Assembly: GCF_022788655.1 (NCBI RefSeq)
Contig: NZ_CP084951.1
Coordinates: 2,852,001 to 2,916,000, forward strand
Origin: Sulfitobacter indolifex
GTDB taxonomy: Bacteria; Pseudomonadota; Alphaproteobacteria; Rhodobacterales; Rhodobacteraceae
Reading direction: 5' to 3'
Length of the DNA stretch: 64,000 nucleotides
The notes under the pieces were generated by a model. That model was not told where the DNA came from, did not search any database, and saw only the letters and a program-made list of their open reading frames with translations. Numbering within the stretch: the first letter of the stretch is position 1; every line of letters begins with the position of its first letter. This document shows positions 11,710 to 27,449 of the stretch, piece after piece. A program made the translations under genes and the position numbers.

Positions 11710-11740
11710 GTTGATCGAGTGATAACGAAACGCGATCAAC
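11710..11740. promoter_or_regulatory. Inverted repeat, candidate LysR operator
   Basis: GTTGATCG at 11710-11717 and CGATCAAC at 11733-11740 form a perfect 8-bp inverted repeat with a 15-base spacer. It lies just before the LysR start and about 90 bases before the divergent TRAP operon start, a typical place for LysR autoregulation and control of the divergent target. LysR sites are often interrupted dyads of this size. The link to this particular protein is inferred from position. Confidence 0.55.
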
Positions 11741-11753
11741 TAGGATGAGGCGC

Positions 11754-12650
11754 ATGAACGACAGCATTAAGCCCACGCGGCTCGACCTTCGGCATCTGCG
11801 CTATGCGCTAGCCGTGGCCGATGCCAGCGGGTTCCGCGCCGCCGCAGAGACGCTCAATATCGCGCAGCCCGCGATTTCGAAAGCTGTAAAGGACACGGAA
11901 ACCGATCTGGGCTTTCGCATTTTTGACCGCAGTGGCCCGCGCGTTGTGCCCACCCCCGAAGGCGCGGTTTTCCTTGAAGATGCACGCCAGACGGTCGCGC
12001 AGTTCGAGCGCACGATCCGCGCCTCGCGCAGAAATGCTGCTGGCGCGCGCGGGCATATCATCGTCGGTTACTCAGCCCTTGCCACCTCGCGGCAAATCTC
12101 TGAAGCGCTGGATGCATTTCATCGTAGTGTGCCGGGTGTGCAGGTTGAGATGCATGTGATGTCTACTGATAACATGCTGAAAAACTTGAAGTCTGGCCAG
12201 ATCGACCTCGGTTTTCTGCTCTCTCATCCCACCGTCGGCGCGCCGGGTATAGACCAGATGCCGGTCTGGCGCTCGCGCATCGGTGTGGTCGCTCCCGCTG
12301 GTGAGATGCCTTCAGAAGTCAAGGATTTGGAGAGCACGCCCTTTGTCATGGGACTGCGGGAAAACTGGCGCTCTTGGCGCGCCCTTCTGGACAGCGCATG
12401 TGATCAGGTCAACCTCGCCCCTGTAGTGGTAGATGAGGCTTGGGACGTGCAGGTGATCTTGCAACGCGTGGCCGAGCGCCGCGGTATGACGTTTTTTCCG
12501 ATGAGCATGGCCGACAGCCTGCCCGCCGCCTTAACATTGGCGCCGGTTGCCGGGCTCGACGCAGAGGCAACGATCTCCATGGCGTGGAGCCTCAAGGCGG
12601 ATACCGGGCTGCTGCGCCAATTCCGCAATCACTTCCCGCCCTTGGGCTGA
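11754..12650 (+). CDS. LysR family transcriptional regulator
   Basis: This is about 298 residues. The N-terminal winged helix-turn-helix has the family pattern RHLRYALAVADASGFRAAAE, LNIAQPAISKAVKDTE and FDRSGPRVVPTPEG. The remainder is a periplasmic-binding-protein-like effector domain. The ATG at 11754 is preferred, with GGATGAGG just upstream, over the ATG nine bases earlier, which lacks spacing for a ribosome binding site. It is divergent from the TRAP operon, which is its likely target; the effector is probably the transported carboxylate. Confidence 0.9.
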   Translation: MNDSIKPTRLDLRHLRYALAVADASGFRAAAETLNIAQPAISKAVKDTETDLGFRIFDRSGPRVVPTPEGAVFLEDARQTVAQFERTIRASRRNAAGARGHIIVGYSALATSRQISEALDAFHRSVPGVQVEMHVMSTDNMLKNLKSGQIDLGFLLSHPTVGAPGIDQMPVWRSRIGVVAPAGEMPSEVKDLESTPFVMGLRENWRSWRALLDSACDQVNLAPVVVDEAWDVQVILQRVAERRGMTFFPMSMADSLPAALTLAPVAGLDAEATISMAWSLKADTGLLRQFRNHFPPLG

Positions 12651-12721
12651 TCGCGTTCGGTTATCGCACGATACCGCAAGTCTATTTGCGTCTCCGCCCC
12701 ATAGCGCGATTTTATGCGCCT

Positions 12722-13519
12722 ATGGAACAAACACCGATTGCACCCTTCGACCTGCCAGAAGCGCAGCCTTTTTTTCTCGAAGGGAGCAAAACCGGTTTCC
12801 TCTTCTTCCATGGGTTCACCAGCACGCCGCAAAGCGTACGAGAGGTCGCTCATCAGGTTCACGCGACGAGCGGTGCCACCGTATATTGCCCGCTGCTGGC
12901 GGGGCATGGTGAGACCCCTGCGGTCTTGGCAAAGACGGGACAAGCCGACTGGGTGGCCTCCGCCGAAGCGGCTCTCGAAACCCTGTGGTCCCGCTGCACG
13001 CAGGTGATCGTTGGCGGCCTTTCGTTGGGGGCGACGCTGTCGCTCAACCTCGCGGCCCGGTTCCCAGAAAAGATACACGGCGTGGTTAGCATCAATGGCT
13101 CAACTGGCCTCTATCGTCCTGAGGTGGTCGCGCCGCTATACGAAACGAAAGGGACCAGTTTTATCGCTGGGATCGGATCCGATATCGCCGAGCCGGGTAT
13201 GACCGAGGTCTGCTATGACCGCATTCCCCAAATAACGCTGAAAGAGCGCTTTCTCTTGACCAATGCCACCGGTGCGCTGCTGCCATTGATACGACAGCCT
13301 ATCTTAATACAGCAATCGCGCCGCGATAACGTTGTAGACCCCAAAAACGCGCCTCGCATTGCCACATCGGTGGGGTCGAGCGAGATCCATCTCCTCTGGT
13401 TAGAGCGATCTTATCACGTCGCAACATTAGATTATGACCGACGGCTAATCGCTGATCGGATTAGTGAATTCCTGAGCCAGTCGAAGTTTGGCCATTTCGG
13501 GACACAAACTCCAGCGTGA
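12722..13519 (+). CDS. Alpha/beta-hydrolase carboxylesterase
   Basis: This is a 265-residue alpha/beta hydrolase resembling small carboxylesterases and monoacylglycerol lipases. It shows the oxyanion region FFHGFTSTPQS near residues 28-37, nucleophile Ser101 in GGLSLGA, acidic residue in SRRDNVVD and catalytic His in SYHVATLD. The first in-frame ATG after the LysR stop is at 12722; an upstream open frame overlaps LysR and is not used. It lies 71 bases after lysR on the same strand and may be co-transcribed. The substrate is unknown. Confidence 0.88.
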   Translation: MEQTPIAPFDLPEAQPFFLEGSKTGFLFFHGFTSTPQSVREVAHQVHATSGATVYCPLLAGHGETPAVLAKTGQADWVASAEAALETLWSRCTQVIVGGLSLGATLSLNLAARFPEKIHGVVSINGSTGLYRPEVVAPLYETKGTSFIAGIGSDIAEPGMTEVCYDRIPQITLKERFLLTNATGALLPLIRQPILIQQSRRDNVVDPKNAPRIATSVGSSEIHLLWLERSYHVATLDYDRRLIADRISEFLSQSKFGHFGTQTPA

Positions 13520-14019
13520 TTCTTTGTTCAAGGTAGCCTGAGATGCTACTGGACATATCGCCTCCAAGACGCGCGGCGATTAAAGATCACAAACTTAGCG
13601 CTCGCTGACATTGAAAGTTGCTGACATTTGCACGTTCCGATCTTTACTGCGGGTCGAAGGGCCTCAGCGAGTTACTGACCTGATATTTTGCGTTCGCAAA
13701 CGATCGCGTTTCCACAGGATGGACAGGAAGGAGCCATTCGCTGCACGAGCGCGGTAAGATTGGGCCGAAGGCACCAGCCGACATTCAAACGGTAACGACT
13801 TGAAGATCCCTTCTGCGGTGCGGCAGGCAGTTCTGAGCCCACTTTACCGGATGCTGCGATCCGCACCAGCGAACGCTTAGGCCGACGGCTTTCTGGAGAG
13901 ATTCGAAATAAAACGTCCGTCCATTACCGCAAAACCCAATGAGACAATGGCAGAGCTAATCCATGCTTCAGGCCCCATTGGTTAGCCACGGAACTGCACC
14001 CCAAACCTATCGCGAAAGA
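13520..14019. other. Intergenic decayed DNA, no supported gene
   Basis: No convincing gene is seen in these 500 bases. Short open frames lack ribosome binding sites and recognisable sequence. The stretch 13600-13880 (alternating GC-rich motifs such as GGAGCCATTCGCTGC and GGATGCTGCGATCCG) has the look of the non-coding repeat family scattered in roseobacter intergenic regions, but this is from memory and could not be checked by alignment. Confidence 0.4.
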
Positions 14020-14164
14020 TGGAATAGGCAAGGTGACCAGCAATGGATTAGCTGTCCCAACTCGAACAAGAATGGCAAATTACGAAATGTATGCCAGTGC
14101 CGTCGGCAATGCGGCCATGCCCAGTAGCATGCTGCTGGTTCGTTCATGTCGTTCATGCCTGCCA

Positions 14165-14613
14165 TGCCCAACACACCGATCCGTTTGCCGCGAACTTCAT
14201 AAGCGTCACATATCGGGCAATAGCGGATAAGCCCGCGCGACAGACCGAGGTCATGATCCTGTTTTGAAAGTGGCGGGCCATGGTTGATCACGCCGGAGGC
14301 CAATATAACGGTCCGTGCAGTGGTGGTGCCATTTGCGGTCGTCACACGGAATGCGCCATCTTTTTTTGGGAATCTCCAGCACCTCATCATTGATGATCTC
14401 TGCGCCATAAATTTCGGCATGGGATTGCATCCATCCAAGCAGGTCCTCGCCCGAAATGCCGTCAGGAAAGGGAGCGAGATTGTGCGTCTTGGGTATTTTC
14501 AGCGCCCGTCCTTCGCGCGCATCGAAGACCATGACCTCGCGCAGAAAGCGGGCAAGGTAAAGTGCGGCGGTAAGACCCGCTGGCCCGCCACCGATGATGA
14601 GGCAGTCCTTCAT
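14165..14613 (-). pseudogene. Truncated, frameshifted thioredoxin-reductase-like FAD oxidoreductase
   Basis: From the ATG at 14613 the frame reads a clear FAD-binding start (IIGGGPAGLTAALYLARF) and continues to about residue 80 (NDEVLEIPKK). At a run of seven T near 14360-14366 the family sequence moves to another frame, KDGAFRVTTANGTTTARTVI, through the CPICDAYE motif of thioredoxin-reductase-like proteins and KRIGVLG. It then loses all similarity. The NADPH domain and C-terminus are missing, so about half the gene remains and it also carries a frameshift. It lies just downstream of the complex-I-like operon and may once have been linked with it. Confidence 0.8.
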
Positions 14614-14658
14614 CTCGTTTATCCTATGAAATCTTGTTAAATTTGCCACATGATGCAG

Positions 14659-16071
14659 TTATCCCGGCAATAGCTGGCTGAGTTGAAAGGCTGTGAACGC
14701 GCTTCCAGCCAACACGGCTCCGCCGATCACGAAAATGCCCCCGATCAACACTGCCACACCACTTGAGCGATCAAGCACAGCGATCTCCTCAGGCGGCGCG
14801 TTGAAATATGCGCGACCCATCACCCGCGCATAGTAGAACAGCGACGCAACGGTATTGGCAGCTGCAACCACCGCGAGCCAACTATAGCCGCCGTCGATCG
14901 TGGTCATGAACAGCGCCAGTTTGCCCAGAAATCCGACTGTTGGCGGAATGCCCACCAGAGACAGGAAAGAGACCACCAGTACTGTCGCCACGATAGGGCG
15001 CCGCTTGGCCAAGCCGTCGTAGTCGGCGATAGCCGTGCGCCCGCGTAGGTATGCCACGACTGCGAAGGCAGCGAGATTGCCTATCGCATAGCTGGCTATG
15101 AAGGCCAGCAGGGCACTCAGCGCATCTGGACTAAGCCCCAGAACGGTGACGGCCATCAATACGTAGCCTGCCTGTGCCACCGAGGACCAGCCGATTAGCC
15201 GGCGGATATCATCCTGCCAAAACGCGGCCAGATTGCCCAAGGTCATTGTCGCTGCGGCTAAAATCGCGATCAGCGGGCGCAGGCCAAGAAATTCCGGGGG
15301 CACAAGCTGTACGAGGCGAGCCAATGCGATGGCCGCGCCGATCTTGGGCACGACCGTCAGGAATGCGGCTGAAGGGACCGGTGCGCCTTCGGCCACATCG
15401 GGCAACCATGCATGCGCGGGTACTGCACCCAGTTTGAACGCGACGCCGGTTAGGGTTAGCGCAAATCCGACGAAGAGCAGCGGGGAATGCCCAGTGCCGA
15501 GCCTTAATGAAGCAGCAATATCTGCGTATCCAGTGCTCCCCAAGAGTCCCAGCATTAAGGTGACCCCGGTAATCAGCAATGCGTTTGCCAGCGCGCCCAT
15601 GAGGAAATATTTCATGCCAGCTTCGACGGACAGCGCCCAGTCGCGGTGCCACGCGGCCAGCGTGTAGCCGGTGACAGAAGACAGCAGCACCGCGATAGTG
15701 AGTTGTAACAGGTCTCCGGCACCGGCCATTGCCATAGCCCCAAGCGCACCAAGCAGGAGGATCGTATAATATTCTCCATGGCGTGGATCGGTGCGGAACC
15801 AGCCCGGTGCCAGGAGAATACAAAAGGCCGTGCCCAACAGGATCATCAATCGCGCCCAAAGGCTGGCTCCGTCCAGCGCCCAAGTTCCTGAAAAGGTGAA
15901 CCGGGTTTCCCCCAATTGCCCCAGAACCAAAACAATGGCGACGGCAATGCCTGCGAGGGCGATGAGTGCCGACCCCGCCTGCATCCGGCGGGGCGCAAAG
16001 GCCGCAAACAGCAGCGCCAACACTGCCGCCACGATGATCGCGATCTCAGGGGATACGTCGCCGATTGGCAC
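14659..16071 (-). CDS. nuoN: NuoN-like antiporter subunit of a complex-I-like membrane module
   Basis: This is a 470-residue polytopic membrane protein of the NuoN/Mrp antiporter family. It retains the channel lysine region VAFKLGAVPAHAWLPDVAEG (around residues 210-230), a membrane Lys in GMKYFLMGALANALLI, and a further Lys in VVPKIGAA. It is the last gene of the operon and starts 3 bases after NuoM. Canonical complex I genes for NADH oxidation (NuoE, F, G, I) are absent around it, so the partner that would drive proton movement is not obvious. Confidence 0.9.
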   Translation of the reverse strand: MPIGDVSPEIAIIVAAVLALLFAAFAPRRMQAGSALIALAGIAVAIVLVLGQLGETRFTFSGTWALDGASLWARLMILLGTAFCILLAPGWFRTDPRHGEYYTILLLGALGAMAMAGAGDLLQLTIAVLLSSVTGYTLAAWHRDWALSVEAGMKYFLMGALANALLITGVTLMLGLLGSTGYADIAASLRLGTGHSPLLFVGFALTLTGVAFKLGAVPAHAWLPDVAEGAPVPSAAFLTVVPKIGAAIALARLVQLVPPEFLGLRPLIAILAAATMTLGNLAAFWQDDIRRLIGWSSVAQAGYVLMAVTVLGLSPDALSALLAFIASYAIGNLAAFAVVAYLRGRTAIADYDGLAKRRPIVATVLVVSFLSLVGIPPTVGFLGKLALFMTTIDGGYSWLAVVAAANTVASLFYYARVMGRAYFNAPPEEIAVLDRSSGVAVLIGGIFVIGGAVLAGSAFTAFQLSQLLPG

Positions 16072-16074
16072 CGG

Positions 16075-17562
16075 TCAGCTCCCTATTATGGCAGAGGAGG
16101 CGCTGCCGATCAGATCAAGCAACCAGCGCGGATAGATGCCGATCAGAATGACCAGCGCCAAGATCGCTGCGAGAATGCTGCCTTCACGCAAGCTGACATC
16201 GGCAAACCCCTCGCGCGCTTTTGGCAGGTCACCAAAGAACACCTGTTGCAACAGCCGCAGAAAGAGTGCGGCAGTAATGAGAATGCCCAGCAGACCAATC
16301 GCAGCGATCACCGGAAAGACGGCAAAGGTGCCGACAAAAATCTGCACTTCCGCTACAAAACCGGCCAACCCCGGCAACCCGAGGCTGGCAAAAGCCGCAA
16401 TCACGGCAGCGACTGTCAGTCGAGGAGCCACTTTAGCCAGCCCGCCGTAAGCATCCATGTCATAGGTCCCACTGCGCGCCCAGAAGCCACCGGCAATCAA
16501 GAAGAGCGCGCCGGTGATTAACCCGTGCGCGACCATTTCGACCACCGCACCGGTCAAAGCCATTTCGCGCGCGCCTTCTGCGCCGTTCAACAAGGCTCCT
16601 GCGGCGGCGATGCCCAAGACGGTATAGCCCATATGATTGACCGACGTGTAGGCGATGCGCCGTTTTAGGTCGGTTTGCCCCAAGGCGACAATGGCCCCCC
16701 ACAGGATAGAAGCGAGTGCCACGATCGCCAGTGGCAATGCATAATCGGCGAAGGTTTCGCGCATCATCTGAAAGGGGATCCGCACAAGCCCATAGGTCCC
16801 CATCTTCAGCAAGACGCCAGCGAGGATGGCCGACACCGGCCCCGGTGCCATGACGTGCGCAGGTGGCAACCATGTGTGAACCGGAAACAGCGGGGCTTTG
16901 ACGGCAAACCCCAGAACGAAGCCCAAAAGGATCAAACCGCCCCGCAAATCCATCTCTGCCAATGGCTGCGCAGCAATCAAAGCGCGCATGTCAAACGTGA
17001 TTGGGTCAACTGTCAGCACCAGCCCGATAATCGCCAGCAAAATCGCGAGGGACCCCGCCAACGTGTAGATAAAGAACTTGAGCGCCGCACCTTGGGCGTC
17101 ACCATGGCCCCACCGTCCGATAAGGAAGAACATCCCGACGAGGCTGAGATCAAAGAAGACATAGAAGATCAGCAAATCGAGGACCATGAACAGGCCCAGC
17201 GACACCGACTCCAGAAACAGAAACCATGCATAGTAGGCGCGGGGACGTTCAGGGTTCTCCATCGGCCATGCAATGCAAGCGATAAAGAGGACGCCGCTCA
17301 TCAACGAGAGCGCCAATGACATGCCATCCACGCCCACGCGCCAGAAGACACCGAGCGCGGGTATCCAAGGGGCCTCCGCATAGGCCTGAAAGGCAGGGGC
17401 CGCTGAGCTTGTGTCAAACTGGTACCAGACGATTAGAAGCAGCAAGAACGACAATGTCGAGGTTGCGACCGCGATGATGCGGGCAGCGGCATGGCCGAGA
17501 CTGGGCAGAACGGTCAGAGCCAGGGCGCCCAGCATCGGGATTAGGATGGTGAGTGTCAGCAT
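16075..17562 (-). CDS. nuoM: NuoM-like antiporter subunit of a complex-I-like membrane module
   Basis: This is a 495-residue polytopic membrane protein. It keeps the NuoM signature FAVKAPLFPVHTWLPPAHVMAP with the channel Lys, and the LKRRIAYTSVNHMGYTVLG region. In TM5 the family motif with a functional Glu (FFxE-LVPM-FLIG) reads FFDLSLVGMFFLIG here, so Asp replaces the Glu that matters for proton pumping in E. coli NuoM. It is one base downstream of NuoL and is likely one of three proton or cation channels of the module. Confidence 0.9.
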   Translation of the reverse strand: MLTLTILIPMLGALALTVLPSLGHAAARIIAVATSTLSFLLLLIVWYQFDTSSAAPAFQAYAEAPWIPALGVFWRVGVDGMSLALSLMSGVLFIACIAWPMENPERPRAYYAWFLFLESVSLGLFMVLDLLIFYVFFDLSLVGMFFLIGRWGHGDAQGAALKFFIYTLAGSLAILLAIIGLVLTVDPITFDMRALIAAQPLAEMDLRGGLILLGFVLGFAVKAPLFPVHTWLPPAHVMAPGPVSAILAGVLLKMGTYGLVRIPFQMMRETFADYALPLAIVALASILWGAIVALGQTDLKRRIAYTSVNHMGYTVLGIAAAGALLNGAEGAREMALTGAVVEMVAHGLITGALFLIAGGFWARSGTYDMDAYGGLAKVAPRLTVAAVIAAFASLGLPGLAGFVAEVQIFVGTFAVFPVIAAIGLLGILITAALFLRLLQQVFFGDLPKAREGFADVSLREGSILAAILALVILIGIYPRWLLDLIGSASSAIIGS

Positions 17563-17563
17563 G

Positions 17564-19474
17564 TCATGCTCCTGCAGCGAGAATGGCGATCACGGCGATG
17601 ACGCCGCCGATAATGTAAGCGTAATAGTGGTGAGAGAGCCCGGTTTGCAGGCGGCGAATGTCGCGGCCTAACATACCGGTCAGGCGCGCACTGCCTTCGG
17701 GTATGCCATCAGAGATCGTCTCCCCGAAACGGTCGCTGACCTGAGCGAGCCAGTCGCCAAATGCAGCAGTGTTCCGGATACCCTGATCAACAACACGGTT
17801 GTCCACCTCCGCGATAAAAGCCGCCCCTTTGCGGCCCATGAAAGCGACCCCACGAGGCCCCGCGTCAATGAGAGTGTCGTCAATCCAAGCCGCTGTTCGG
17901 GCAAGCGCATCTATGGGGCGCACAACGTCGATGGTGATCAACTTGGGCAGCCCGAGCCAATCTGAGGCGGCAGCAGTGGCACCGCTTGTTCCGAGCGTAG
18001 GGTGCCGCCGCACCAGATAGACGCCGCCCAAGACACCGGCGGCGACAAAGGCCAGCGAAAGGCCAAGCATCAAAGGGCTGCCTTTGGGGAGCGTCATGGC
18101 CAATAGGGCGGCAAGTGCCTCAGCCAGGGGCGGATACCACAGAAGGCTTGTTGTCAGCGTTAATGCAGCGAGGATACCCAGTCCGATGGTTTCCACCCTG
18201 TCAGGCACCTCGATTGACCGCTCGTCATCGCCGCGCCAGCTAAATGCCAGCAACAAGAAGCGCGTCGTATAGGCCGCGCTCAGTGCGCCGCCGAGCATCA
18301 CTGCGATTGGCAGCCAATACCCAGTATGTTCAACCGCTTTAATGATTTCTTCTTTACTCCAACCGCCGCCCGCGGGTGGCATCCCGGCAAGCCCGACGGC
18401 TGCTATAGCTGTAAGCCCCCCGACGATTGGCATCGTTTGGCCCAGCATCATTTTATCCAGGCGGTAGCTCCCCGCAGCATCCCCTGCGAGGCCCGCCGAA
18501 AGGAAAAGCGGCGCTTTGAATGTGGCGTGGACAATCAAGTGCAGTACCGCGATCCCCGGATACCCCGCACCGACTGCAACGAACATAAATCCGAGATGGG
18601 CTGAGGTGGACGCCGCAAGCAGCCGTTTGGCGTGGTTCTGCAAAACCCCGGTGACCCCTCCCGCCAGAGCAGTGATCAAGCCGATCAAGATCGCCGCGAC
18701 GCTAAACCCGGGAGCGAGGGACAAGGATGGCTCAAGACGCGCGATGATATAGGCACCGGCTGCCACCAGCGTCGCCGCATGGAGAAGCGCCGAGACCGAA
18801 CTGGGGCCAGCCATCGCCCGAAACAGCCAGGGCGAGAAGGGAACCTGTCCGGCTTTCGAGGCCGCCGAAAGAAGGATTCCAAAGGCTACGATCCACTGAA
18901 ACGTGCCTTCGAGCGTTGCGATGCCGGCATAATCGAAAGACCCCGTGGCGGAGTAGAGCGCCATTGCAGCGGCAAAAAGTCCAAGGTCACCGAAGCGCGT
19001 CATCACGAAAGCATAAAGGCCCGAACGCGGATTTTCGATGTCGCGCCACTTGTGCGAGATCAGCGCCCAGGAACAGGCGCCAATTAGCTCCCAGCCGATA
19101 AGCAGCGTCAAAAGATCATCGGCGACGACAACCAATTCCATACCGCCTGTGAACAGGATCATGATGCCAGTTAGCCGCCCCAGCCCATGCGCTTGTTCAT
19201 GCTGTGTGGCATGAAAGACAACAGCAAGTGCTATGGCGGGAACCATGAGAGCCACCGCCGCTGAGATCGGCGTGAGAGAGGCGGTAAGCCGGAGTGCATC
19301 CGACCAGATCAAGTACGCGGTCCATTCTTGTGCGACGGCAGCTAACGCCAAGACGAAAGTTCCGCCAAGCACGGCCACTGCCAACCCTCCAAGCCAGCCG
19401 CGCGACCGATCACCCATCACCGCAATGAACACGCCTGACAAAATCGGTAGAAGGGGGAGTAGCCAAAGCGTCAT
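17564..19474 (-). CDS. nuoL: NuoL-like antiporter subunit of a complex-I-like membrane module
   Basis: This is a 636-residue polytopic membrane protein. It retains TM5 Glu in LIGWELIGACSW, TM7 Lys in SAASKAGQVPFSPWLF, the GPSSVSALLHAATLVAAG motif and the later Lys in ATFKAPLFLSAG. The C-terminal part is long and ends in a membrane span (YIIGGVIAVIAILAAGA), like the lateral helix and last span of NuoL. The ATG overlaps the NuoK stop as ATGA. Conserved channel residues argue for an active ion-translocating subunit. Confidence 0.92.
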   Translation of the reverse strand: MTLWLLPLLPILSGVFIAVMGDRSRGWLGGLAVAVLGGTFVLALAAVAQEWTAYLIWSDALRLTASLTPISAAVALMVPAIALAVVFHATQHEQAHGLGRLTGIMILFTGGMELVVVADDLLTLLIGWELIGACSWALISHKWRDIENPRSGLYAFVMTRFGDLGLFAAAMALYSATGSFDYAGIATLEGTFQWIVAFGILLSAASKAGQVPFSPWLFRAMAGPSSVSALLHAATLVAAGAYIIARLEPSLSLAPGFSVAAILIGLITALAGGVTGVLQNHAKRLLAASTSAHLGFMFVAVGAGYPGIAVLHLIVHATFKAPLFLSAGLAGDAAGSYRLDKMMLGQTMPIVGGLTAIAAVGLAGMPPAGGGWSKEEIIKAVEHTGYWLPIAVMLGGALSAAYTTRFLLLAFSWRGDDERSIEVPDRVETIGLGILAALTLTTSLLWYPPLAEALAALLAMTLPKGSPLMLGLSLAFVAAGVLGGVYLVRRHPTLGTSGATAAASDWLGLPKLITIDVVRPIDALARTAAWIDDTLIDAGPRGVAFMGRKGAAFIAEVDNRVVDQGIRNTAAFGDWLAQVSDRFGETISDGIPEGSARLTGMLGRDIRRLQTGLSHHYYAYIIGGVIAVIAILAAGA

Positions 19475-19776
19475 TCTTTCAGCGCCCCGAGCGCTTCAAT
19501 CACGTCCGCTTGACGCTTGCGATAGACGGCAACAACCAAGGCAAAGCCGATTGCCAGTTCGACTGCCATCACCGCCATGATCAGGATCGCAAGCAATTGT
19601 CCCTCAGGCGCACCTTCAAGGGTAAAGGCCCAAAATCCGACAGCCGCGAGTAGGGTGCCATTTAGCATCAACTCCAAGCCCATCATCAGCATTACAAAGG
19701 ATTTCTGTGACAACGCACCGAACAGACCGATGCCAAAGAGCGCCGACGCGACAATCAATATGGCTGTTAACGTCAT
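19471..19776 (-). CDS. nuoK: NuoK-like subunit of a complex-I-like membrane module
   Basis: This is a 101-residue protein with three membrane spans, the normal NuoK length. Both functionally important membrane glutamates are present: one in GLELMLNG (equivalent of E36) and one in MAVELAIGFAL (equivalent of E72). It starts one base after the NuoJ stop and overlaps the NuoL start. It is the best-conserved member of the operon. Confidence 0.93.
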   Translation of the reverse strand: MTLTAILIVASALFGIGLFGALSQKSFVMLMMGLELMLNGTLLAAVGFWAFTLEGAPEGQLLAILIMAVMAVELAIGFALVVAVYRKRQADVIEALGALKE

Positions 19777-19777
19777 A

Positions 19778-20617
19778 TCAATGCTCCTTCATCGGCCTGG
19801 TGCCGTGACCTTCATGCCGGTCCGGTGCTGGCTCTTGTCTGGGCTTCTCTGGATCGGCGCCTTCGGGGTCAGCGCCGGTTGTGTGTCCTACGTGACCCGT
19901 ATGCCCTGCTGACAACGCCGGGTCGTCGTCGGCCATCTCGTGACCCATATGGCCAGTGCCTTGGGCGCCGTCCTTCTTGTTAGTCATCTTGTCATGACCA
20001 CCATGACCACCATGCCCTCCGTGGCCTCCGTGGCCTCCGTGGCCACCGCCTTCCTCCACCTTGCGCCCCGCAGGTGTTCCGCCCGGATGAAGCCCTGGGG
20101 GGACAGCACCCTCGTCCGACACGCCAAACCGGCCACGGCGGCTCGATAAGATGACAGCGCCGAGCATGGTCGCCAATAGCGTCACCCCGGCGGTCTCGAA
20201 TATCAGCATCGAGCTGCCCAGCAGGTTGATGCCCAGATCACGCATGGTATCCCGACCCGCAGGCAGGGGATTATGCGGTAGGTCAGTTGCCAGCACCGCG
20301 ACTGTGAGGCCGATGAAAGCTACAATGCCCGCTCCTATCGACAGGCGGTATTGATGCACCATCTGCATCGGGTTCAGGCCTGCCGGGTTCATCATGAACA
20401 TCACCATGAAAAGACCCATGACCATCATCTCGACCGCCATCATAAATACCGTGGCGACGCCGATGTAATCGGCAGACATCAATAGCGCGATGGCACCGAC
20501 ACAGATGAACGATACCATCAGCGCGAATGTTGCACGGATCATCGAGTCGACCCGAAACACCCGCCAGCCGCTCCAGATGGCGATCGCCGAGAGGATATAG
20601 AAAGCAATATCCGTCAT
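19778..20617 (-). CDS. nuoJ: NuoJ-like subunit with a long His-rich C-terminal tail
   Basis: This is 279 residues, against about 170-200 for ordinary NuoJ. Residues 1 to about 175 are the five-span NuoJ domain, including YIGVATVFMMAVEMMVMGLF in place of the usual VGAIAVLFLFVVMML span. After ILSSRRGRFG comes an extra tail of roughly 100 residues with six His in an H-G-G repeat, then GHMGHEM, AGHTGHVGH and RHEGH; about 14 His in total. Such a tail would be expected to bind Cu, Ni or Zn. The ATG overlaps the NuoH stop (ATGA). Confidence 0.88.
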   Translation of the reverse strand: MTDIAFYILSAIAIWSGWRVFRVDSMIRATFALMVSFICVGAIALLMSADYIGVATVFMMAVEMMVMGLFMVMFMMNPAGLNPMQMVHQYRLSIGAGIVAFIGLTVAVLATDLPHNPLPAGRDTMRDLGINLLGSSMLIFETAGVTLLATMLGAVILSSRRGRFGVSDEGAVPPGLHPGGTPAGRKVEEGGGHGGHGGHGGHGGHGGHDKMTNKKDGAQGTGHMGHEMADDDPALSAGHTGHVGHTTGADPEGADPEKPRQEPAPDRHEGHGTRPMKEH

Positions 20618-21528
20618 GCCAGCGCCACCAGTCCGGCCAGCAACAAGTCCAAGAAGGCAATTGGCAGCAGGACCTTCCAGATCAGCCCGAGCATCCGTGC
20701 TACGGGCATACGCGCCAGCAGATGAGACTGGGCGATAATGACAGCCATGATGGTTAGTGTTTTGAACGCGAGCCAGACAACACCCGGAAGAACCGGGCCG
20801 AGATAGCCGCCCAGAAATGCCGAGGCGGCCACGGCAGAAAAGCCAACTAACATGGACATTCTTGCCACCTGCCAACCAGCCCGATTAGCGCCTGAATCTT
20901 CGATGGACGTGCCGCCTGCAAGGTCAGCACTGTCGGCGTAGTCGAGTGGTCCGCGCAGCGTAAGTGACAATCCCAACAGTATGAAGAGGGGCAGCCCAAG
21001 CGGTTGGCGGATCACATTCCATAGGTCTTCTTGCGACGTCACGATAGCGCGCAGATCAAGCGACTCTGCAGGCAGTGCGGCGGCGATCAGGACAAACATG
21101 CTAAGCAGCATGATCGGCAGCCCAATAGCGACGTAGCGATAGGCCCCGATCAGGGCGAGTGGGGAATTGGGTGACCAGCCGTGCAAAAACACAAGCACAA
21201 CCACGAGGGACTCGCACGCCCCCCACAGCACCACACTGGTTTCGAGGCCAATCACCGCAGACTGTGGCCCAAGCGGTACGACAGCGAGACCAATCGCACC
21301 GAGCGTCAGAAAACCCGAGATGGACAGGAACCAGTTCATTCTGTCTGGCGCCTCGGTCGAAATGCGTTGCCGAGACACTTCCGCCGCAGCGGCATAGAGC
21401 GGCGTTAGCAAACTGCCCCCAGTGCGTCCGGCCAGCCATCGGTAGAAAAACGTGTCCAGAACCGCAGCGATAAGTATGCCGACGGTCATGAATACGAGCA
21501 TTATCATCAGGGTGAGGGCGACGCTCAT
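20614..21528 (-). CDS. nuoH: NuoH-like subunit, strongly diverged
   Basis: This is a 304-residue protein with about eight membrane spans, in the position and with the topology of NuoH. The conserved ERK-type quinone-gate loop of classic NuoH is replaced (YRWLAGRTGGSLLTPLYAAA). The acidic loop usually reading APFDLPEAESEL becomes RGPLDYADSADLAGG, and HGWSPNSPLALIGAYR stands for the usual GWSSNSKY-LLGALR. Loss of these residues suggests that quinone is bound differently or not at all. Its ATG overlaps the preceding stop (ATGA). Confidence 0.82.
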   Translation of the reverse strand: MSVALTLMIMLVFMTVGILIAAVLDTFFYRWLAGRTGGSLLTPLYAAAAEVSRQRISTEAPDRMNWFLSISGFLTLGAIGLAVVPLGPQSAVIGLETSVVLWGACESLVVVLVFLHGWSPNSPLALIGAYRYVAIGLPIMLLSMFVLIAAALPAESLDLRAIVTSQEDLWNVIRQPLGLPLFILLGLSLTLRGPLDYADSADLAGGTSIEDSGANRAGWQVARMSMLVGFSAVAASAFLGGYLGPVLPGVVWLAFKTLTIMAVIIAQSHLLARMPVARMLGLIWKVLLPIAFLDLLLAGLVALA

Positions 21529-22547
21529 GACATGTGCCCTGCATGGACGCCGTGATCCATGCCGCCCGCCATGGCATCGGGCTCAGGATTAGAGGTATTG
21601 GCGCAGATGGCGCGCAGCGATGCGTTGTCAAAGCTGTTCAAAACCAGCATGGCTTCGTGCCATTCCAGACCGATCAATAGATCATCAAGGCCTGTTTGCT
21701 GGACGTGCAGGGTAAAAATGGGTTCTGAGGTGCCGGTCAGCAGGTCAAAGCGCGTGCGTACGTCCGATCCGTCATGGGTGCGGCCCAACCCTTCGGGGAT
21801 TGCTGCCCGCGCGCCCGATAAGCGGATCAGCCGTTTGAGGGTCGCATTGCCGATGTTGGTGGCGCGTAACATCCGTTCGGCCAGTGCGGGCAGTCCAAGA
21901 AGATTGAGTAGAACCCAACCGCGTTGTTCCTGGGTTTCGAACGGCGGATGCGCAACCGCAACGTTCTGTATCATGTCACCTTGGAGAGTGAGGGTCAGGA
22001 CGAGCCCGGGCGGGAGCATGGGGAGAAAAGGACCGAAATCTGCGGTGTAGGCATCAAGCTCCAGCCCATCCCGCAGATCGGCGGCTGTCATCGCCATTGG
22101 CCTTCCATAAGGCGTGCCGCCCATCATGCCTTTACCGCCCTGACCATGTGGACCAATCCCACGCCACTCGTTTGGCGGGGCATCTGGCAAAAAATCGGGC
22201 TCGGTCTTGAGACTGCCAACCAGCAGATCTCTGTGAATTGCCCTCAGCAAAACGCTGATTTTCGCTATTTCTTCTATTCTCGTCGCGCCTGACAACTCAT
22301 TCCGTGAATGCCAGAGAGCGCTGGCGCGGGGGTGCGGCAACTGGTCATGCAGGCGGTGTAGTTGAGGAATAAGAGCCTCTGGTATCGTGCCTACAACCAA
22401 CAAAACCGCTGCGGCTCGCGGCGTCTCAACAACGCGCAATCCAGGGGATTTAGCCAGCACGCTCGCAGCATCAGCAGGGGCACCTTCACCAAAGGCTACA
22501 AACACCGGCACTTCGGCCAGCCCTGCCATTTTTGCAAGCCAGCTCAT
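21525..22547 (-). CDS. NuoB/NuoD-like fusion protein without Fe-S ligands
   Basis: This is a 341-residue soluble protein. Residues 1 to about 85 resemble the NuoB/hydrogenase small-subunit core (VPVFVAFGEG..., VVETPRAAAVLLVVGTIPEA, LHRLHDQLPHPR) but contain none of the four cysteines that hold cluster N2; the whole protein has one Cys, near the end. From about residue 130 it resembles NuoD-type large subunits: GPHGQGGKGMMGGTPYGRPM, RDGLELD and GPFLPMLPPGLVLTLTLQGD. The C-terminus, MAGGMDHGVHAGHMS, is Met/His-rich. It lies between NuoA and NuoH exactly where NuoB-C-D would be, so it probably forms the peripheral stub of the module without electron transfer through N2. Confidence 0.75.
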   Translation of the reverse strand: MSWLAKMAGLAEVPVFVAFGEGAPADAASVLAKSPGLRVVETPRAAAVLLVVGTIPEALIPQLHRLHDQLPHPRASALWHSRNELSGATRIEEIAKISVLLRAIHRDLLVGSLKTEPDFLPDAPPNEWRGIGPHGQGGKGMMGGTPYGRPMAMTAADLRDGLELDAYTADFGPFLPMLPPGLVLTLTLQGDMIQNVAVAHPPFETQEQRGWVLLNLLGLPALAERMLRATNIGNATLKRLIRLSGARAAIPEGLGRTHDGSDVRTRFDLLTGTSEPIFTLHVQQTGLDDLLIGLEWHEAMLVLNSFDNASLRAICANTSNPEPDAMAGGMDHGVHAGHMS

Positions 22548-22885
22548 TCCCACCGAAAAATACCCTCCCGCCAGCCATAGACGATCCCGACCGATAGAAT
22601 GACCAAGAACATACCCATCTCTGCCAGCGCCTTGGGGCCTTCCTCTACGAAAACCACGGCCCAAGGATACATGAACATCATCTCCATCTCGAAGGCGACG
22701 AACAGCAGCGTCATCGTGTAGTACCGGACGTGGAAACGTTGCCATGCATGGGTCTCAGGATCACTGCCACCGAGTATAGGGCGCTTCTGAGGATAGGTGC
22801 TCGGACCCGTACCGCCTGCCCGCAATGCTGCGGTGAACAGCATTGAGAATGCAAAGATCAAAATGATGGCGATCAATGTCGTCAT
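22544..22885 (-). CDS. nuoA: NuoA-like subunit of a complex-I-like membrane module
   Basis: This is a 113-residue, three-span membrane protein. It retains the family loop with QKR-PILGG-D and the RYYTMTLLFVAFEMEMMFMYPWAV segment with the conserved acidic residues of NuoA. The stop overlaps the start of the NuoB/D-like gene. It is the first nuo-type gene of the operon; 163 bases separate it from the upstream DUF305 gene on the same strand. Confidence 0.9.
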   Translation of the reverse strand: MTTLIAIILIFAFSMLFTAALRAGGTGPSTYPQKRPILGGSDPETHAWQRFHVRYYTMTLLFVAFEMEMMFMYPWAVVFVEEGPKALAEMGMFLVILSVGIVYGWREGIFRWE

Positions 22886-23048: not shown

Positions 23049-23555
23049 TCAGCCCTTTTCACCGTACCAGCTATGGCGCCAGTCGATCATTTTGCCGATC
23101 TCTTGGGCCTGAGCATCGATAATGCTCCTCGAAAGCTTCTTGATGTCGCTGTTGGAGCTCTGTTTCAGAGCGACCGCTGCCATTTCAATTGCAGAGGCAT
23201 GGTGCGGCAGTTGTGAATCGATGAATGCTTTGTCGAAGGGTGTCTTTTTTGCGAGTTCTTCTGGGCTGTCCATCCCGAGCATGCTGCGCTCATGGGGATG
23301 GGTTTCCGTCGCGACTTCATCAGGACCATCAAGGTCTTCGATTATGCCATCGAGCGTTTTGATTTCTTTCTTCTGATCTTCGATCATGGTCTTTGCGAAC
23401 TGGACGAGTTCGCTGTGCTCGCCTTTTTCCACCGCAACCTCGGCCATTGATACCGCCATCGCATGATGTGCAGACATCATATTGACGAACCGTAGATCGG
23501 AATATTCTCCATTGTGAACCAAATTTGCAGTCGCTTGGCGCTGTGACGTCATCAT
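23049..23555 (-). CDS. DUF305 (ferritin-like four-helix) protein
   Basis: This is 168 residues with two DUF305-type repeats: MMSAHHAMAVSMAEVAVE with ...MIEDQKKEI in the first half, and DSQLPHHASAIEMAAVALKQ with ...IIDAQAQEIGKMIDW in the second. The HH-A-M-E and Q-EI positions are the family hallmark and suggest metal binding. No signal peptide is present, so it is probably cytoplasmic, unlike most DUF305 proteins. AGGAG precedes two adjacent ATGs at 23555 and 23552. DUF305 genes often accompany copper-handling loci; here it leads the complex-I-like operon with its His-rich subunits. Confidence 0.88.
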   Translation of the reverse strand: MMTSQRQATANLVHNGEYSDLRFVNMMSAHHAMAVSMAEVAVEKGEHSELVQFAKTMIEDQKKEIKTLDGIIEDLDGPDEVATETHPHERSMLGMDSPEELAKKTPFDKAFIDSQLPHHASAIEMAAVALKQSSNSDIKKLSRSIIDAQAQEIGKMIDWRHSWYGEKG

Positions 23556-23812
23556 CGTTCTCCTTTGGTTAGTGTTGGAAACGCGGAATAGCCGCTATGG
23601 TTCCGGTCGGATAAGTTGCGCCACGGGAAGAGGCCTACCTTTCCACGTCAGATTTTCGCTGAAGCATGCGCTTCTTAACCGAAGGTCTGAAAGCTAAGCA
23701 CGGCGCACTGGGCTTAGCCGGAACATTCATCAGACAGTTTGAGTTATGGGTAAAAGACGCCTGAAGCCAAACAGCCGTGGGCTCTGCCCGCCAATAGATA
23801 ATGGAGCACCCG

Positions 23813-23959
23813 ATGCCAAACGAACCAGACTACGCCAAAGAAAAGCGCCCGCCGCACCGCAAGCGGCATAATGCACAAGACGATCACGAGGGAGCCGCTC
23901 ACAGTCCTGAAGAGTTCGATTCAAAGAATCCACAGAAAGTGCTCAAGGAGGACGACTAA
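23813..23959 (+). CDS. Small, highly charged hypothetical protein (48 aa)
   Basis: A 48-residue frame runs from ATG 23813 to TAA 23959, preceded by GGAG with a 6-base spacer. The peptide starts MPNEPDYAKEKRPPHRKRHN and ends KVLKEDD; it is rich in Lys, Arg, His, Asp and Glu with no hydrophobic core, so it is probably disordered. It diverges from the DUF305 gene. I do not recognise a family. Good ribosome binding site and codon choice make it plausible but not certain. Confidence 0.5.
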   Translation: MPNEPDYAKEKRPPHRKRHNAQDDHEGAAHSPEEFDSKNPQKVLKEDD

Positions 23960-24419
23960 GCCTCATGAGTTGATGCTGCTATCTAATGCTCGGATGCCAT
24001 GCAAGGCACGGGTCCGCTCTGCAAACCTGCACCCGCTGAAAATTCTGCAAGATGGACGAATGGCCGGTCTGGTGAAGCTGCACCGCAGCGCTCAGCCACG
24101 AGGCGAACGGCAGGTCAGGGCCGTGTGCGCCGATGTAGCAATACCTATCCGGCGGGCCTGGTTTTTTTGGCCCCCATAAAGCATCTCGGGTCAATGCTGG
24201 GCAGAACTTTAGCGTTCATATGACGCCCGGTTTCTTCCTTGCACCGGTGTCATAACTGTTTGGTAGTGAGTTTATCTCGGAATTGAGCCGCCTTACCATG
24301 CAGCCCTCCCCAATACGACATACACAAAATATCGCCACCATCCGGCGACACGACGCTAAACATAGACCTCGGGAAAAACTCAGCCTTCCACGGGAAAATC
24401 CTAGATATGTCTTACACCC
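23960..24419. other. Intergenic region, no supported gene
   Basis: There are 460 bases without a convincing gene, promoter or RNA. Small open frames on both strands lack ribosome binding sites. A short GC-rich dyad around 24148-24174 (CCGGCGGGCC ... GGCCCCC) flanks a seven-T run but fits no clear terminator. Confidence 0.5.
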
Positions 24420-24731
24420 TCAGTGCGTCCAAGCTCCACGACGCCCGGTTGCAAAATTCTCACCGTAGCCGCCGGCGCGGATGTTTGGCTTGCGCTTGTT
24501 CGGCAGTTGCACCTGCGCATCGATGCCATGATCGCGGGCATATTCCTCGGCGGCTTCGCGGGTGTCGAACTCCAAGCGCACTTGGCTTTGCGTATCGTCC
24601 GACGAGGTCCAACCCATCAGAGGATCAACGCTGCGTGCTTCCGCTGGCGAAAACTCAAGCAGCCAGACACGGGTCTTGGCCGTGCCGGAGGACATCGCTG
24701 TACGGGCGGGTTGGTAGATACGTGCGCGCAT
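24420..24731 (-). CDS. AQDQ/NDUFS4-type NADH dehydrogenase (complex I) accessory subunit
   Basis: This is a 103-residue soluble protein matching the ETC complex I subunit family (18 kDa AQDQ subunit of mitochondria, present in alphaproteobacteria). Visible features are [24 protein letters not shown], then [33 protein letters not shown], which are the central conserved blocks. In alphaproteobacteria this is an accessory subunit of the main complex I. Its closeness to the complex-I-like operon at 14659-22885 may be chance, as it is a separate transcription unit. Confidence 0.9.
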
Positions 24732-24872
24732 TTCGGGACTCTCGCTTCAGGAACCTCGCGCTTTATCTAATATTCCGCGCCAAGGGGCAAGGGAATGCAA
24801 GACAGCGCAAATAAACCCTACCATGCTGCAGTGCAGAGACTACATGAGGATAACCCCATTGGAGCACTCCAC

Positions 24873-25157
24873 ATGAACCCCTTCGCCCTATTCGCCATGC
24901 AAAGCCAACTGGCCTCGCTGGCAGTTGAAACCCAGATTGTCATGTCATTGCGCATTCTGGCCATGGCCGGTGCGCTCCCCGCGCGACCCGGCGAGAATAA
25001 CCGCATGGTTGCCGAAAAAGGCCCCGCCATGGCCAAGGCTTTCCACGCTGGTACGCAGGCGGCGATGTCGGGCAAAAGCCCTGACCAAATCATGAACGCC
25101 TCGCTTGCGCCCTTGGCCCGAAAAGTACGTCAGAACCGCAAACGGCTGATGAAGTAG
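24873..25157 (+). CDS. Conserved hypothetical protein (94 aa)
   Basis: This is a short protein starting MNPFALFAMQSQLASLAVE with an amphipathic, Met/Ala-rich helix, followed by a helical basic C-terminus (KVRQNRKRLMK). The ATG at 24873 has GGAG 8 bases upstream and is preferred to an earlier ATG at 24795. No known domain is recognised; the helical Ala/Met-rich character recalls phasin-like or so-called antifreeze-annotated small proteins. It lies just upstream of uvrB on the same strand. Confidence 0.65.
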   Translation: MNPFALFAMQSQLASLAVETQIVMSLRILAMAGALPARPGENNRMVAEKGPAMAKAFHAGTQAAMSGKSPDQIMNASLAPLARKVRQNRKRLMK

Positions 25158-25192
25158 AGGCAAAAGCGACCTTCACGGCCCCCTGCCCCTTG

Positions 25193-25207
25193 AACCGAGC
25201 GTGAAAG
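25193..25207 (+). promoter_or_regulatory. Possible LexA (SOS) box before uvrB
   Basis: GAAC-CGAGCGT-GAAA differs by one base from the alphaproteobacterial LexA box GAAC-N7-GAAC. It lies about 40 bases before the uvrB start, an appropriate position for repression. uvrB is a common SOS gene, but the site is imperfect. Confidence 0.4.
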
Positions 25208-25244
25208 AGGGCACCTATGGGGAGCCCGACGAAGGATACCCGCG

Positions 25245-27449
25245 ATGCCCTATGCCCAGACCGATAAATCGGAAGGTATGCCGCTTTTGGCAAACCCCGC
25301 CCCCGATGTCCGCACCCGCCCTAAGCTGGAGGGCGGGCATAGCTTTAAATTGGTCACTGAGTTTGCCCCGGCAGGCGATCAGCCGACAGCGATCAAGGAA
25401 CTGACCGAGGGCGTGAACTCAGGCGAACGCGATCAGGTGCTTTTGGGGGCGACCGGTACAGGTAAGACCTTTACCATGGCCAAGGTCATCGAAGAGACGC
25501 AGCGCCCGGCGATCATCCTTGCGCCGAACAAGACGCTCGCGGCGCAGCTTTACGGAGAGTTCAAAGGCTTCTTCCCAGACAACGCCGTGGAATATTTCGT
25601 TTCCTACTACGATTACTACCAGCCCGAAGCCTATGTCGCGCGCTCCGACACCTTCATCGAGAAGGAATCACAAATCAACGAGCAGATCGACCGGATGCGC
25701 CACTCCGCCACACGCGCGCTCCTGGAACGGGATGATGTGATTATCGTGGCCTCTGTGTCGTGCATCTACGGCATCGGTAGTGTTGAGACCTACGGCGCGA
25801 TGACCCAAGACCTGAAGGCCGGCGAAAGCTATGACCAGCGTAAGGTCATCGCCGATCTGGTGGCCCAACAGTACAAACGCAATGACGCGGCCTTCCAGCG
25901 CGGCTCCTTTCGGGTGCGCGGTGACAGCCTTGAGATTTTCCCGGCTCACCTTGATGACCGCGCTTGGCGGCTCAGCTTCTTCGGCGAGGAGCTGGAAAGC
26001 ATCACCGAGTTCGATCCGCTCACCGGAGAGAAGACCGACACCTTCGACCAGATCCGCGTCTACGCGAACAGCCACTATGTGACGCCCAAACCAACGATGT
26101 CGCAGGCGATCATCGGCATCAAGAAAGAGCTGCGCACGCGGCTTGATCAACTGGTTGCAGACGGCAAATTGCTGGAGGCGCAGCGGCTGGAGCAACGGAC
26201 GAACTTCGATATCGAGATGCTAGAGGCCACCGGCGTCTGCAACGGGATCGAGAACTATTCACGCTACCTCACCGGCCGCGCGCCCGGTGAGCCACCCCCT
26301 ACCCTGTTCGAGTTCATCCCCGACAATGCGATCGTCTTCGCGGATGAATCCCACGTCTCGGTCCCGCAGATTGGCGGCATGTACAAGGGCGACTATCGAC
26401 GCAAATTCACGCTGGCCGAACACGGCTTCCGCCTGCCGTCCTGCATGGACAACCGCCCGCTGAAGTTCGAGGAATGGGATGCCATGCGCCCGCAATCGGT
26501 CTTTGTGTCGGCCACGCCCGCAGCGTGGGAGATCGAGCAAACGGGCGGCGTTTTCACCGAACAAATCATTCGCCCGACCGGCCTGATCGACCCATATATT
26601 GAGATCCGCCCCGTGGAAATGCAGGTCGACGATCTGCTGGATGAGGTGCGCAAAGTCGCCGCCGATGGCTACCGCACGCTGTGCACCGTACTGACCAAGC
26701 GCATGGCCGAAGACCTGACCGAATACATGCACGAACAGGGCATCCGCGTGCGCTACATGCACTCGGACATTGACACGATCGAGCGGATCGAGATTCTGCG
26801 CGATCTCCGGCTGGGTGCATTCGACGTGCTGATCGGGATTAACCTGCTGCGCGAGGGGCTCGATATCCCTGAATGCGGACTGGTGGCCATTCTGGATGCG
26901 GACAAAGAAGGCTTCCTGCGCTCGGAAACCTCGCTGATCCAGACCATCGGTCGTGCGGCGCGTAACGCCGATGGGCGCGTCATCATGTATGCCGACCGCA
27001 TCACCGGCAGCATGGAACGGGCGATGGGCGAAACCGACCGCCGCCGCGCCAAGCAGATGGCCTATAACGAGGAACACGGTATCACGCCTGCAACGGTCAA
27101 GAAGAACGTCGATGACATTCTGGCCGGACTTTACAAAGGCGATGTCGATATGAACCGCGTGACAGCCAAGGTCGATAATCCGCTGGCCGGGGGCAACCTT
27201 CAAACCGTGCTGGACGGACTTCGCACGGACATGCGCAAAGCGGCAGAAAACCTCGAGTTTGAGGAGGCCGCGAGGCTGCGAGATGAGGTCAAGCGTTTGG
27301 AAGCTGTTGACTTGGCAGTGGCCGATGACCCGATGGCCCGACAGCAGGCCGTGGATCGGGCGGTGGATGCGGCACAGAAAGCGTCAGGGCGCAGCACCTC
27401 TGGCCGTGGCGGGATGCGCGGCGGCAATGTAAAGCGCCGCAAGCGCTGA
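25245..27449 (+). CDS. uvrB: UvrABC excision nuclease subunit B
   Basis: This is a 734-residue nucleotide-excision repair helicase-like subunit that receives damaged DNA from UvrA and recruits UvrC. Walker A GATGTGKT is near residue 66, the beta-hairpin region [12 protein letters not shown] follows, then [17 protein letters not shown], the helicase motif QTIGRAARN, and the C-terminal UVR domain ([19 protein letters not shown]) for UvrC binding. A basic tail (GGNVKRRKR) ends the protein. AAGGA lies upstream of the ATG. Confidence 0.97.

Follow-up and report, generated by a model that had tools for sequence, protein, structure and literature searches.

A methionine-rich relative of the complex I membrane arm without redox centres, linked to copper genes, and its possible role in Cu+ export

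The closest described counterpart of the gene cassette considered here lies in Marinobacter atlanticus, where a complex I-like cassette interrupts a copper operon and is apparently co-regulated with the flanking copper genes (the NuoJ gene of the cluster goes up together with them). Eddie et al. (2021; PMC8233155) suggested that it specifies a pump powered by copper redox; the passages of that paper drawn on here say nothing of methionines, of metal domains or of how widespread the cluster is. So-called hydrogenase genes beside a copA cluster on an island of the Alteromonas plasmid pCUKW-178 (PMC8478169) might be a cassette of this kind, and nothing else relevant to the family was recognised among open-licence papers (subscription papers lie mostly outside that literature). 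Our own cassette occupies positions 14659-22885 of a 64,000-nucleotide stretch of the Sulfitobacter indolifex genome (contig NZ_CP084951.1; the whole stretch is referred to as the window). A preliminary description of this DNA, made from its letters alone, knew of no described function for such a gene set. That is nearly right, save that the Marinobacter cluster had been reported and a copper-redox pump guessed at. The cassette is related to the membrane arm of respiratory complex I but has given up redox chemistry, is fitted for metal and is under strict selection. It may be a non-redox machine for a soft metal (probably Cu+), perhaps a Cu+ exporter driven by proton motive force, a reading that we hold tentatively and place a little short of an even chance.

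The cassette consists of eight genes arranged head to tail on the minus strand in the order nuoA, a NuoB/D-like fusion (BD), nuoH, J, K, L, M and N, with four-base overlaps at A-BD, BD-H, H-J and K-L, one-base gaps at J-K and L-M and a gap of three bases at M-N. The products are NuoA-like (22544..22885, 113 residues; Pfam PF00507, E 1.2e-23), BD (21525..22547, 340 residues), NuoH-like (20614..21528, 304 residues; PF00146, E 2.8e-34; best Protein Data Bank (PDB) match E. coli NuoH), NuoJ-like (19778..20617, 279 residues; PF00499, E 1.9e-17), NuoK-like (19471..19776, 101 residues; PF00420, E 6.8e-17), NuoL-like (17564..19474, 636 residues; PF00361, E 1.6e-49), NuoM-like (16075..17562, 495 residues; TIGR01972, 466.7 bits, cut-off 263.8) and NuoN-like (14659..16071, 470 residues; TIGR01770, 330.4 bits, just under the cut-off of 332.6). 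(The BD start is taken as the ATG at 22547 and not the first in-frame start at 22745; the NuoJ start, set by alignment, is taken as the ATG at 20617 and not the TTG at 20875.) Pfam matches the Nuo A/H/J/K and antiporter families in seven of the eight window proteins and gives no match to BD; with NCBIfam added, the membrane subunits A, H, J, K, L, M and N of respiratory complex I are all present. All eight open reading frames (ORFs) of the tightly packed operon in the preliminary description are thereby confirmed.

Relatives were collected in three ways. A tblastn search of plasmids with BD gave seven records, of which four were opened (Roseivivax, Acuticoccus, Halomonas and Martelella), and screening a collection of 84,980 species genomes yielded 121 relatives, of which 80 were kept (some genomes are represented twice). 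These 80 and the window make up the 81 loci, and with the four plasmid loci the 85 loci, that are referred to below. All eight genes were found in 78 of the 85, and their order is identical in 78/78, so the arrangement is not due to chance. In L011, A and J were missed by the gene search and are present in the annotation; L014 is interrupted by a transposase gene; five other incomplete loci are without some genes, several of them probably because the contig ends there (short or cut loci). (In L014, the Martelella plasmid pMM259, the cassette is cut at 14001-16242, where a BD fragment is followed by an ISL3-family transposase gene, with H-J-K-L-M-N not in the stretch fetched.) Finally, a plasmid search with the NuoJ of the Halomonas cassette gave 31 records, including Arthrobacter, Rhodococcus, Gordonia, Mycobacterium, Pseudonocardia, Curtobacterium and Rubrobacter, with Sulfitobacter, Paracoccus, Thioclava, Nitratireductor and Roseovarius as a second group. 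Twelve further records were fetched from among these and 11 used (seven Actinomycetota and four Alphaproteobacteria; L252, from Vreelandella, was dropped for its fragmentary annotation); having been found with a NuoJ query, they favour similarity in NuoJ, not in NuoA or NuoK. By annotation, all 11 further loci have the order A-BD-H-J-K-L-M-N, with the NuoB-like part a separate gene in L248 and a gap of ~450-760 bases between A and BD in L250, L255 and L257. The proposal that homologous operons be checked for constant gene order has thus been carried through, with a positive outcome. At least two bacterial phyla have members with the cassette, which often sits on plasmids in the company of copper-resistance genes. 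It is also rare and patchy, matching 5 of 398 Pseudomonadota genomes and, in its own family, 8 of 394 (own genome included in both; two of the eight scores are weak). The same-genus genome G154 has no BD match; it keeps the uvrB side of the cassette locus at 77%, and a search for island borders did not find the other flank there. Guanine-plus-cytosine content of the cassette region does not stand out, and phages gave no match to the cassette.

The constant eight-gene set is without NuoC, NuoI and the electron-input arm, and contains no haem, flavin or iron-sulphur protein. Moreover, NuoC, E, F, G and I are absent from the 22 flanking ORFs that were scanned (3278-13519, 14007-14649 and 23049-34094; small overlapping ORFs only partly), as the preliminary description had stated for the operon and its surroundings. 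The host encodes NuoB, C, D, F, G, H and J, a NuoI-like Fer4 protein and three antiporter-family genes in one separate stretch, and it also has NuoA; NuoE and NuoK are not among the subunits identified in the main operon. (Two further antiporter-family genes at 1.95 Mb are taken for a putative Mrp.) Since the host has this separate complex I, the cassette is a set apart from it. The two outcomes that had been named as fatal to such a view were looked for: missing Nuo genes were not found nearby, and the host's main complex I has membrane subunits of its own.

BD is what is left of the quinone module: a NuoB fold with a NuoD remnant. Rows of the VIA-align structural comparison cover residues 1-122 (to 125) only. 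NCBIfam gives BD a weak NuoB match (E 6e-4); Foldseek yields no row that reaches E 0.001, its first being HycG of formate hydrogenlyase (E 1.3e-3); the leading eight are NuoB-type, and carbon monoxide dehydrogenases also appear. Alignment of the window BD with two canonical NuoD by hhalign is not significant; the NuoD profile PF00346 passes its cut-off in the BD of L070, L081 and L084 and of the further plasmid loci L248, L249 and L251. The N2 cysteines are gone: host and E. coli NuoB have four such columns in common, and in none of them does any BD N-domain show cysteine (0/83 each; the window BD has a single cysteine). The quinone motif HPxxHG, present in host NuoD, occurs in 0/85 BD, and several quinone-side carboxylates of NuoH are lost or changed. 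With the redox subunits likewise not found, the claim that the set encodes neither electron donor nor quinone reductase is borne out. Features of another kind occur in BD. A Met/Gly loop (residues 131-154, GMMGG.PYGRPMAM; 22086..22157, minus strand) is nearly invariant in alignments (its predicted local distance difference test score is under 50 in a model of isolated BD), an M-x-M precedes a DGL motif in 11/11 further loci, and several actinobacterial BDs have His/Met-rich stretches. Heavy-metal-binding domains (HMBD, PF19335) are found in the BD of L248 (five), L249 (two) and L251 (two), proteins that also retain a NuoD signal with E down to 4e-17.

The second departure from complex I is a gain of methionine in NuoA, NuoJ and NuoK, mostly in place of canonical V, L, I, A or Y, around the carboxylates of the E-channel. 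Cassette and canonical proteins (31-32 sequences, alphaproteobacterial and E. coli) have methionine contents of 8.4 vs 3.1% in NuoA, 10.4 vs 4.6% in NuoJ (first 165 residues) and 9.2 vs 4.8% in NuoK; NuoH lies below canonical (3.1 vs 4.3%; 27 sequences), and NuoL, M and N average 2.3, 3.1 and 3.0%, with most of their methionine columns also methionine in E. coli or the host. Columns with at least 90% methionine number 13 vs 3 in J, 7 vs 1 in A and 5 vs 2 in K. (Fragments under 75% of median length were dropped from the 81-locus alignment.) Among 126 residues that the cassette has fixed and that canonical A/J/K/H seldom show, methionine is the commonest, at 23 (J 11, A 6, K 4, H 2). The gain is most concentrated in the third transmembrane helix (TM3) of NuoJ and the loop that follows (residues 59-88; 20354..20443, minus strand), where M59, M60, E63, M64, M67, M71, M73, M75, M76, M84, M86 and H88 are each conserved at 97% or more in 81 loci. 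Of these methionines, only M73 is Met in 32 canonical NuoJ, with M86 sometimes so (3), and NuoJ of Mycobacterium, Thermus, a cyanobacterium and Paracoccus in PDB alignments is also without the run. In NuoA the acids E66/E68 stand at the places of E. coli D79/E81, and the TM2 stretch has M58, M67, M69, M70 and M72 (22670..22714, minus strand); in NuoK, E35 and E73 stand at the places of E. coli E36/E72, and M29, M31, M67 and M70 are new. The further loci, which played no part in defining the pattern, repeat most of this: NuoJ M26, M59, M60, E63, M64, M67, M71, M75, M76, M84, M86, H88 and M137, NuoK M29 and M70, and NuoA M69 and M72 are present in 11/11, NuoJ M73 in 10/11 and NuoA M67 in 6. The places of E. 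coli NuoJ V58, Y59 and A62, which a 2026 study includes in its quantum-mechanical region between D79 of NuoA and E36 of NuoK (PMC13324432), are M, M and E in the cassette. In complex I, bulky residues of ND6 TM3 block the proton path in the open state (review PMC10212512).

Physical linkage of the cassette family to copper genes exceeds background. The flanks of 40/81 loci hold one copper marker or more, as against 0/40 control stretches of 13.5 kb (Fisher P 1.2e-9; controls are from 10 chosen single-contig genomes of the same class, not from host genomes, and the copper reference proteins are from L011-L014, which are outside the 81). CueR passes its curated cut-off in 46 genes of 35/49 genomes, 207.5 Mb in total; the 621 kb of cassette flanks hold seven (at 7/49 loci), where 0.14 are expected. 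(This search was given 50 of the 80 loci, of which 49 entered it; flank matches were made by genome and coordinate, to 90 bases or less, with contig names not compared.) The first plasmid loci (4/4) lie beside genes for CueR, a Cu-type P-ATPase, multicopper oxidase, CopC/D, DUF411 or DUF305, and copper or heavy-metal genes are annotated at 8/11 further plasmid loci, within the stretch shown. Ten genes beside marker-negative cassettes include one with CusB-CusF domains, one DUF326 gene (which we take to specify a copper-storage protein) and eight that are not copper-specific. In the window, a DUF305/CopM-family gene (23049..23555, minus strand; NF049983, 94.2 bits, cut-off 90; PF03713) lies 163 bases upstream of nuoA; in L015, too, such a gene precedes nuoA. 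The CopM of Synechocystis binds copper and acts in resistance (PMC4335983). A CopY-like box is found in 2/84 upstreams of nuoA with a simple consensus pattern. The preliminary description had raised metal handling on the strength of His-rich parts; copper neighbourhoods, HMBDs in homologous BDs and the fixed methionines of NuoA, J and K now favour it on broader grounds than the tails.

With respect to descent, a 67-row tree places 25 cassette NuoM in one clade (100/100) that is sister (100/99) to 31 Pseudomonadota NuoM, E. coli and host included. Cassette N pairs with NuoN (100/100) and cassette L, more weakly, with NuoL (96/54), while HyfB/D/F and presumed Mrp rows fall outside cassette M plus NuoM. 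This is the comparison with complex I, Mrp and group 4 hydrogenase that had been asked for at the outset, and Mrp or hydrogenase descent is not supported by the NuoM trees. When the 11 further loci are included, a single clade (100/99) takes in 23 cassette NuoM rows, drawn from three subclades and two phyla, with 12 canonical NuoM rows on the other side at weak support (84/44); the canonical set is Pseudomonadota only, and long outgroup branches limit deeper claims. On these trees the cassette family has a common origin and, by the branching of its L, M and N, belongs to the complex I superfamily. Identical NuoM rows in different hosts point to recent transfer: they are found in Rhodococcus and Gordonia plasmids, and in an Acuticoccus plasmid (L012) and an Erythrobacter metagenome bin (L057), where identity is a sign of very recent transfer or of a binning error.

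In the export reading, the former quinone module (NuoB plus NuoD) would serve as a cytoplasmic metal-capture subunit, with its Met loop, its His/Met-rich stretches and, in some lineages, its HMBDs. BD would take Cu+ (or another soft ion, such as Ag+) from the cytoplasm, with entry where quinone once bound; Cu+ would pass from BD into a methionine-lined path through A, J and K around the carboxylates, and would leave on the periplasmic side, with ions flowing in through the antiporter-like subunits NuoL, M and N as the driving force. In effect this would be complex I working in reverse, powered by proton motive force, with a metal ion taking the part of quinone. If the topology is that of the homologous complex I, the methionines of the NuoJ TM3-4 loop, H88 and the C-terminal tails should face the cytoplasm and NuoA M69/M72 should lie towards the periplasm, so that a chain of methionines could cross the membrane. 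That the methionines bind Cu+ and make up a continuous path, and likewise the direction and the driving force, we infer from sequence. A little more reserve attaches to the wider proposal that the family constitutes a new class of bacterial Cu+ exporter, its quinone module turned into a metal receptor and its E-channel into a methionine relay, drawing on proton motive force and spread by plasmids in Pseudomonadota and Actinomycetota.

The putative pump retains much of what it would need: NuoL keeps E129, D163, K207, H232, H312, H316 and K374, NuoM keeps K222, K253 and E405, and NuoN keeps K213, K243 and K384. To that extent the earlier statement that key pump residues are kept stands for the lysines, histidines and some glutamates. 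It does not stand throughout, and here begin the points that weigh against export. The place of NuoM E144 is D in 79/79 (D138 in the window) and that of NuoN E133 is L in 78/78 (window L129). These changes break or alter the carboxylate chain and may weaken coupling to the antiporters; they make coupling less certain and slightly lower the likelihood of export. Some methionines are specific to clades: among the further loci NuoA M58 is found in 1/11 and M70 and M92 in 0/11, NuoK M31 in 7/11 and M67 in 5/11, and NuoH M140 and M226 in 0/6 and M144 in 3/6. A helix-face test gives a weak result for NuoJ TM3 (P 0.013 for a selected subset, 0.09 when all methionines are counted) and no signal for the methionines of NuoA and NuoK; a helix with methionines on a single face was accordingly set aside. 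The E-channel of complex I is described as dry towards both membrane sides (PMC10212512), and homology therefore does not supply a metal path across the membrane. The copper linkage is also incomplete. No copper marker was found in the flanks of 41/81 loci, the window among them, in part because flanks covered mostly ~10 kb upstream and 1-3.5 kb downstream; the DUF305/CopM gene is the sole hint in the stretch of the window that was searched, which holds no classical copper marker. The Rhodococcus, Gordonia and Paracoccus loci (3/11) are without annotated copper or heavy-metal genes in the stretch shown. Boxes of the CueR, CusR, CopR or CsoR type were found in 0/84 upstreams of nuoA with simple consensus patterns, which degenerate sites or a promoter further upstream could escape.

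Other explanations share much of this evidence. BD and the methionine region might sense Cu+ and switch ion flow through Mrp-like L, M and N, copper itself not being carried, so that a copper-gated antiporter or channel would keep pH, K+/Na+ or membrane potential in order when copper is in excess. The retained antiporter lysines and histidines suit such a device, as does a K+-channel-like gene beside the cassette in several loci; the many methionines fixed in three subunits and the repeated HMBDs look like more than a sensor requires, and we regard gating as unlikely, if worth keeping in mind. The suggestion made for Marinobacter, that copper oxidised or reduced at the BD/NuoH side powers the pumping of ions, draws on co-localisation and apparent co-regulation with copper genes there (PMC8233155), on the retention of most pump residues, and on the occurrence of multicopper oxidases and cytochromes c near the cassette in several loci. 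It has to reckon with a BD without N2 cysteines and quinone motif, and with the lack of any redox protein in the constant set. Methionine-rich sites favour Cu+ and do not favour redox cycling, which further counts against it, and a copper-redox pump is accordingly rated improbable.

Methionine sites also suit Ag+, so that the substrate might be a soft metal other than copper (Ag+, Hg2+, Au+), or more than one metal, the copper genes then lying close by only through the clustering of resistance genes on islands. Arsenic and organomercury genes are indeed among the plasmid neighbours, but the neighbours that were counted are mostly of copper type (CueR, CopA/CopB, multicopper oxidase, DUF411, DUF305), and this alternative ranks just below copper redox. 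Since sequence does not give direction, and since multicopper oxidases and cupredoxins nearby need copper, the cassette might import copper or supply it to copper enzymes instead of removing it; the neighbourhood is of the resistance type, with P-type ATPases (in Curtobacterium an ATPase gene directly precedes nuoA), and import is given very little weight. Least probable of all is a spare or decaying membrane arm working with the NADH arm of the host, or a relic without function. Each of the eight subunits does have its homologue in complex I, as this would have it, but the interfaces of BD and NuoH are changed, and the order kept in 78/78 together with strict conservation across phyla shows selection. 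A backup complex I is likewise held unlikely, given that constant order and the loss of HPxxHG from every BD.

If the Cu+ export reading is right, a metal ion in place of quinone can run the coupling of complex I, from Q-module through E-channel to antiporters. The family would then be a natural experiment on the unsettled coupling of the Q site to protons, with the same membrane machine working without electrons. It would also be a new plasmid-borne copper resistance residing in genes whose present annotation is NADH-quinone oxidoreductase subunit or hypothetical protein.

Several further features of these loci deserve record. The window NuoJ has a C-terminal tail of ~90 residues (~190-279; 19781..20050, minus strand) that is His/Gly-rich, with HGGH repeats; at 279 residues this NuoJ is the longest of 81 extracted by script (the next has 254), and the annotated NuoJ of L011 has ~300. 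Downstream, nuoN is adjoined by an ORF at 14251-14649 (132 residues) that matches only the start of flavin adenine dinucleotide oxidoreductase families and looks truncated. Just upstream of the second-group cassette in L248 (4238-5461) and L257 (3201-3716) are a lone antiporter-like gene or fragment, DUF6629 and a sigma-70 gene. DUF4396 genes adjoin the cassette in Stakelama (L026, 8719-9615) and Rubrobacter (L249, 18677-19375), and the ergothioneine genes egtB/egtD flank it in Halomonas and Jiella loci (L013, 22102-24374; also L073 and L031). Genomes G302, G308, G311, G314 and G317 have a second cluster with three close NuoM-profile matches, which is not the cassette and is perhaps a complex I with extra pump subunits.

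Set beside known systems, the cassette is most like respiratory complex I (NDH-1), with which it has in common seven membrane subunits, the order A..H-J-K-L-M-N and the NuoB fold of BD. It differs in having no NuoC/E/F/G/I, N2 cysteines or HPxxHG, in that NuoB and NuoD are fused and truncated, in the fixed methionines of A, J and K, and in a NuoM clade separate from 31 NuoM rows. The Mrp Na+/H+ antiporter is also non-redox, with NuoL/M/N-type subunits and NuoJ- and NuoK-like parts and without NuoA, NuoH and NuoB/D; in contrast, the cassette has A, H and BD, and its M and N do not branch with the (putative) host MrpA/MrpD. Group 4 hydrogenases (Hyf/Mbh) are alike in their NuoB/D/H-like core and antiporter subunits, but HyfB/D/F branch away from cassette M, and the window BD, with its single cysteine, cannot bind a NiFe site, for which two CxxC motifs are needed (this applies to the window BD only). 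Known Cu+ exporters, the P1B-type ATPase CopA and the HME-RND system CusCBA, resemble the cassette in proposed task and in neighbourhood; they are unrelated proteins, and the eight genes specify no ATPase or RND domain. CusA has a methionine relay, comparable to the one proposed for the cassette. The Marinobacter atlanticus cluster, on the other hand, is alike in consisting of complex I-like genes inside a copper-resistance operon, with apparent co-regulation; in the part of the report drawn on here, which deals with one genome, seven genes are counted, six are called nuoADHJKL and nuoMN are held to be missing (PMC8233155). That cluster is very probably a member of the cassette family.

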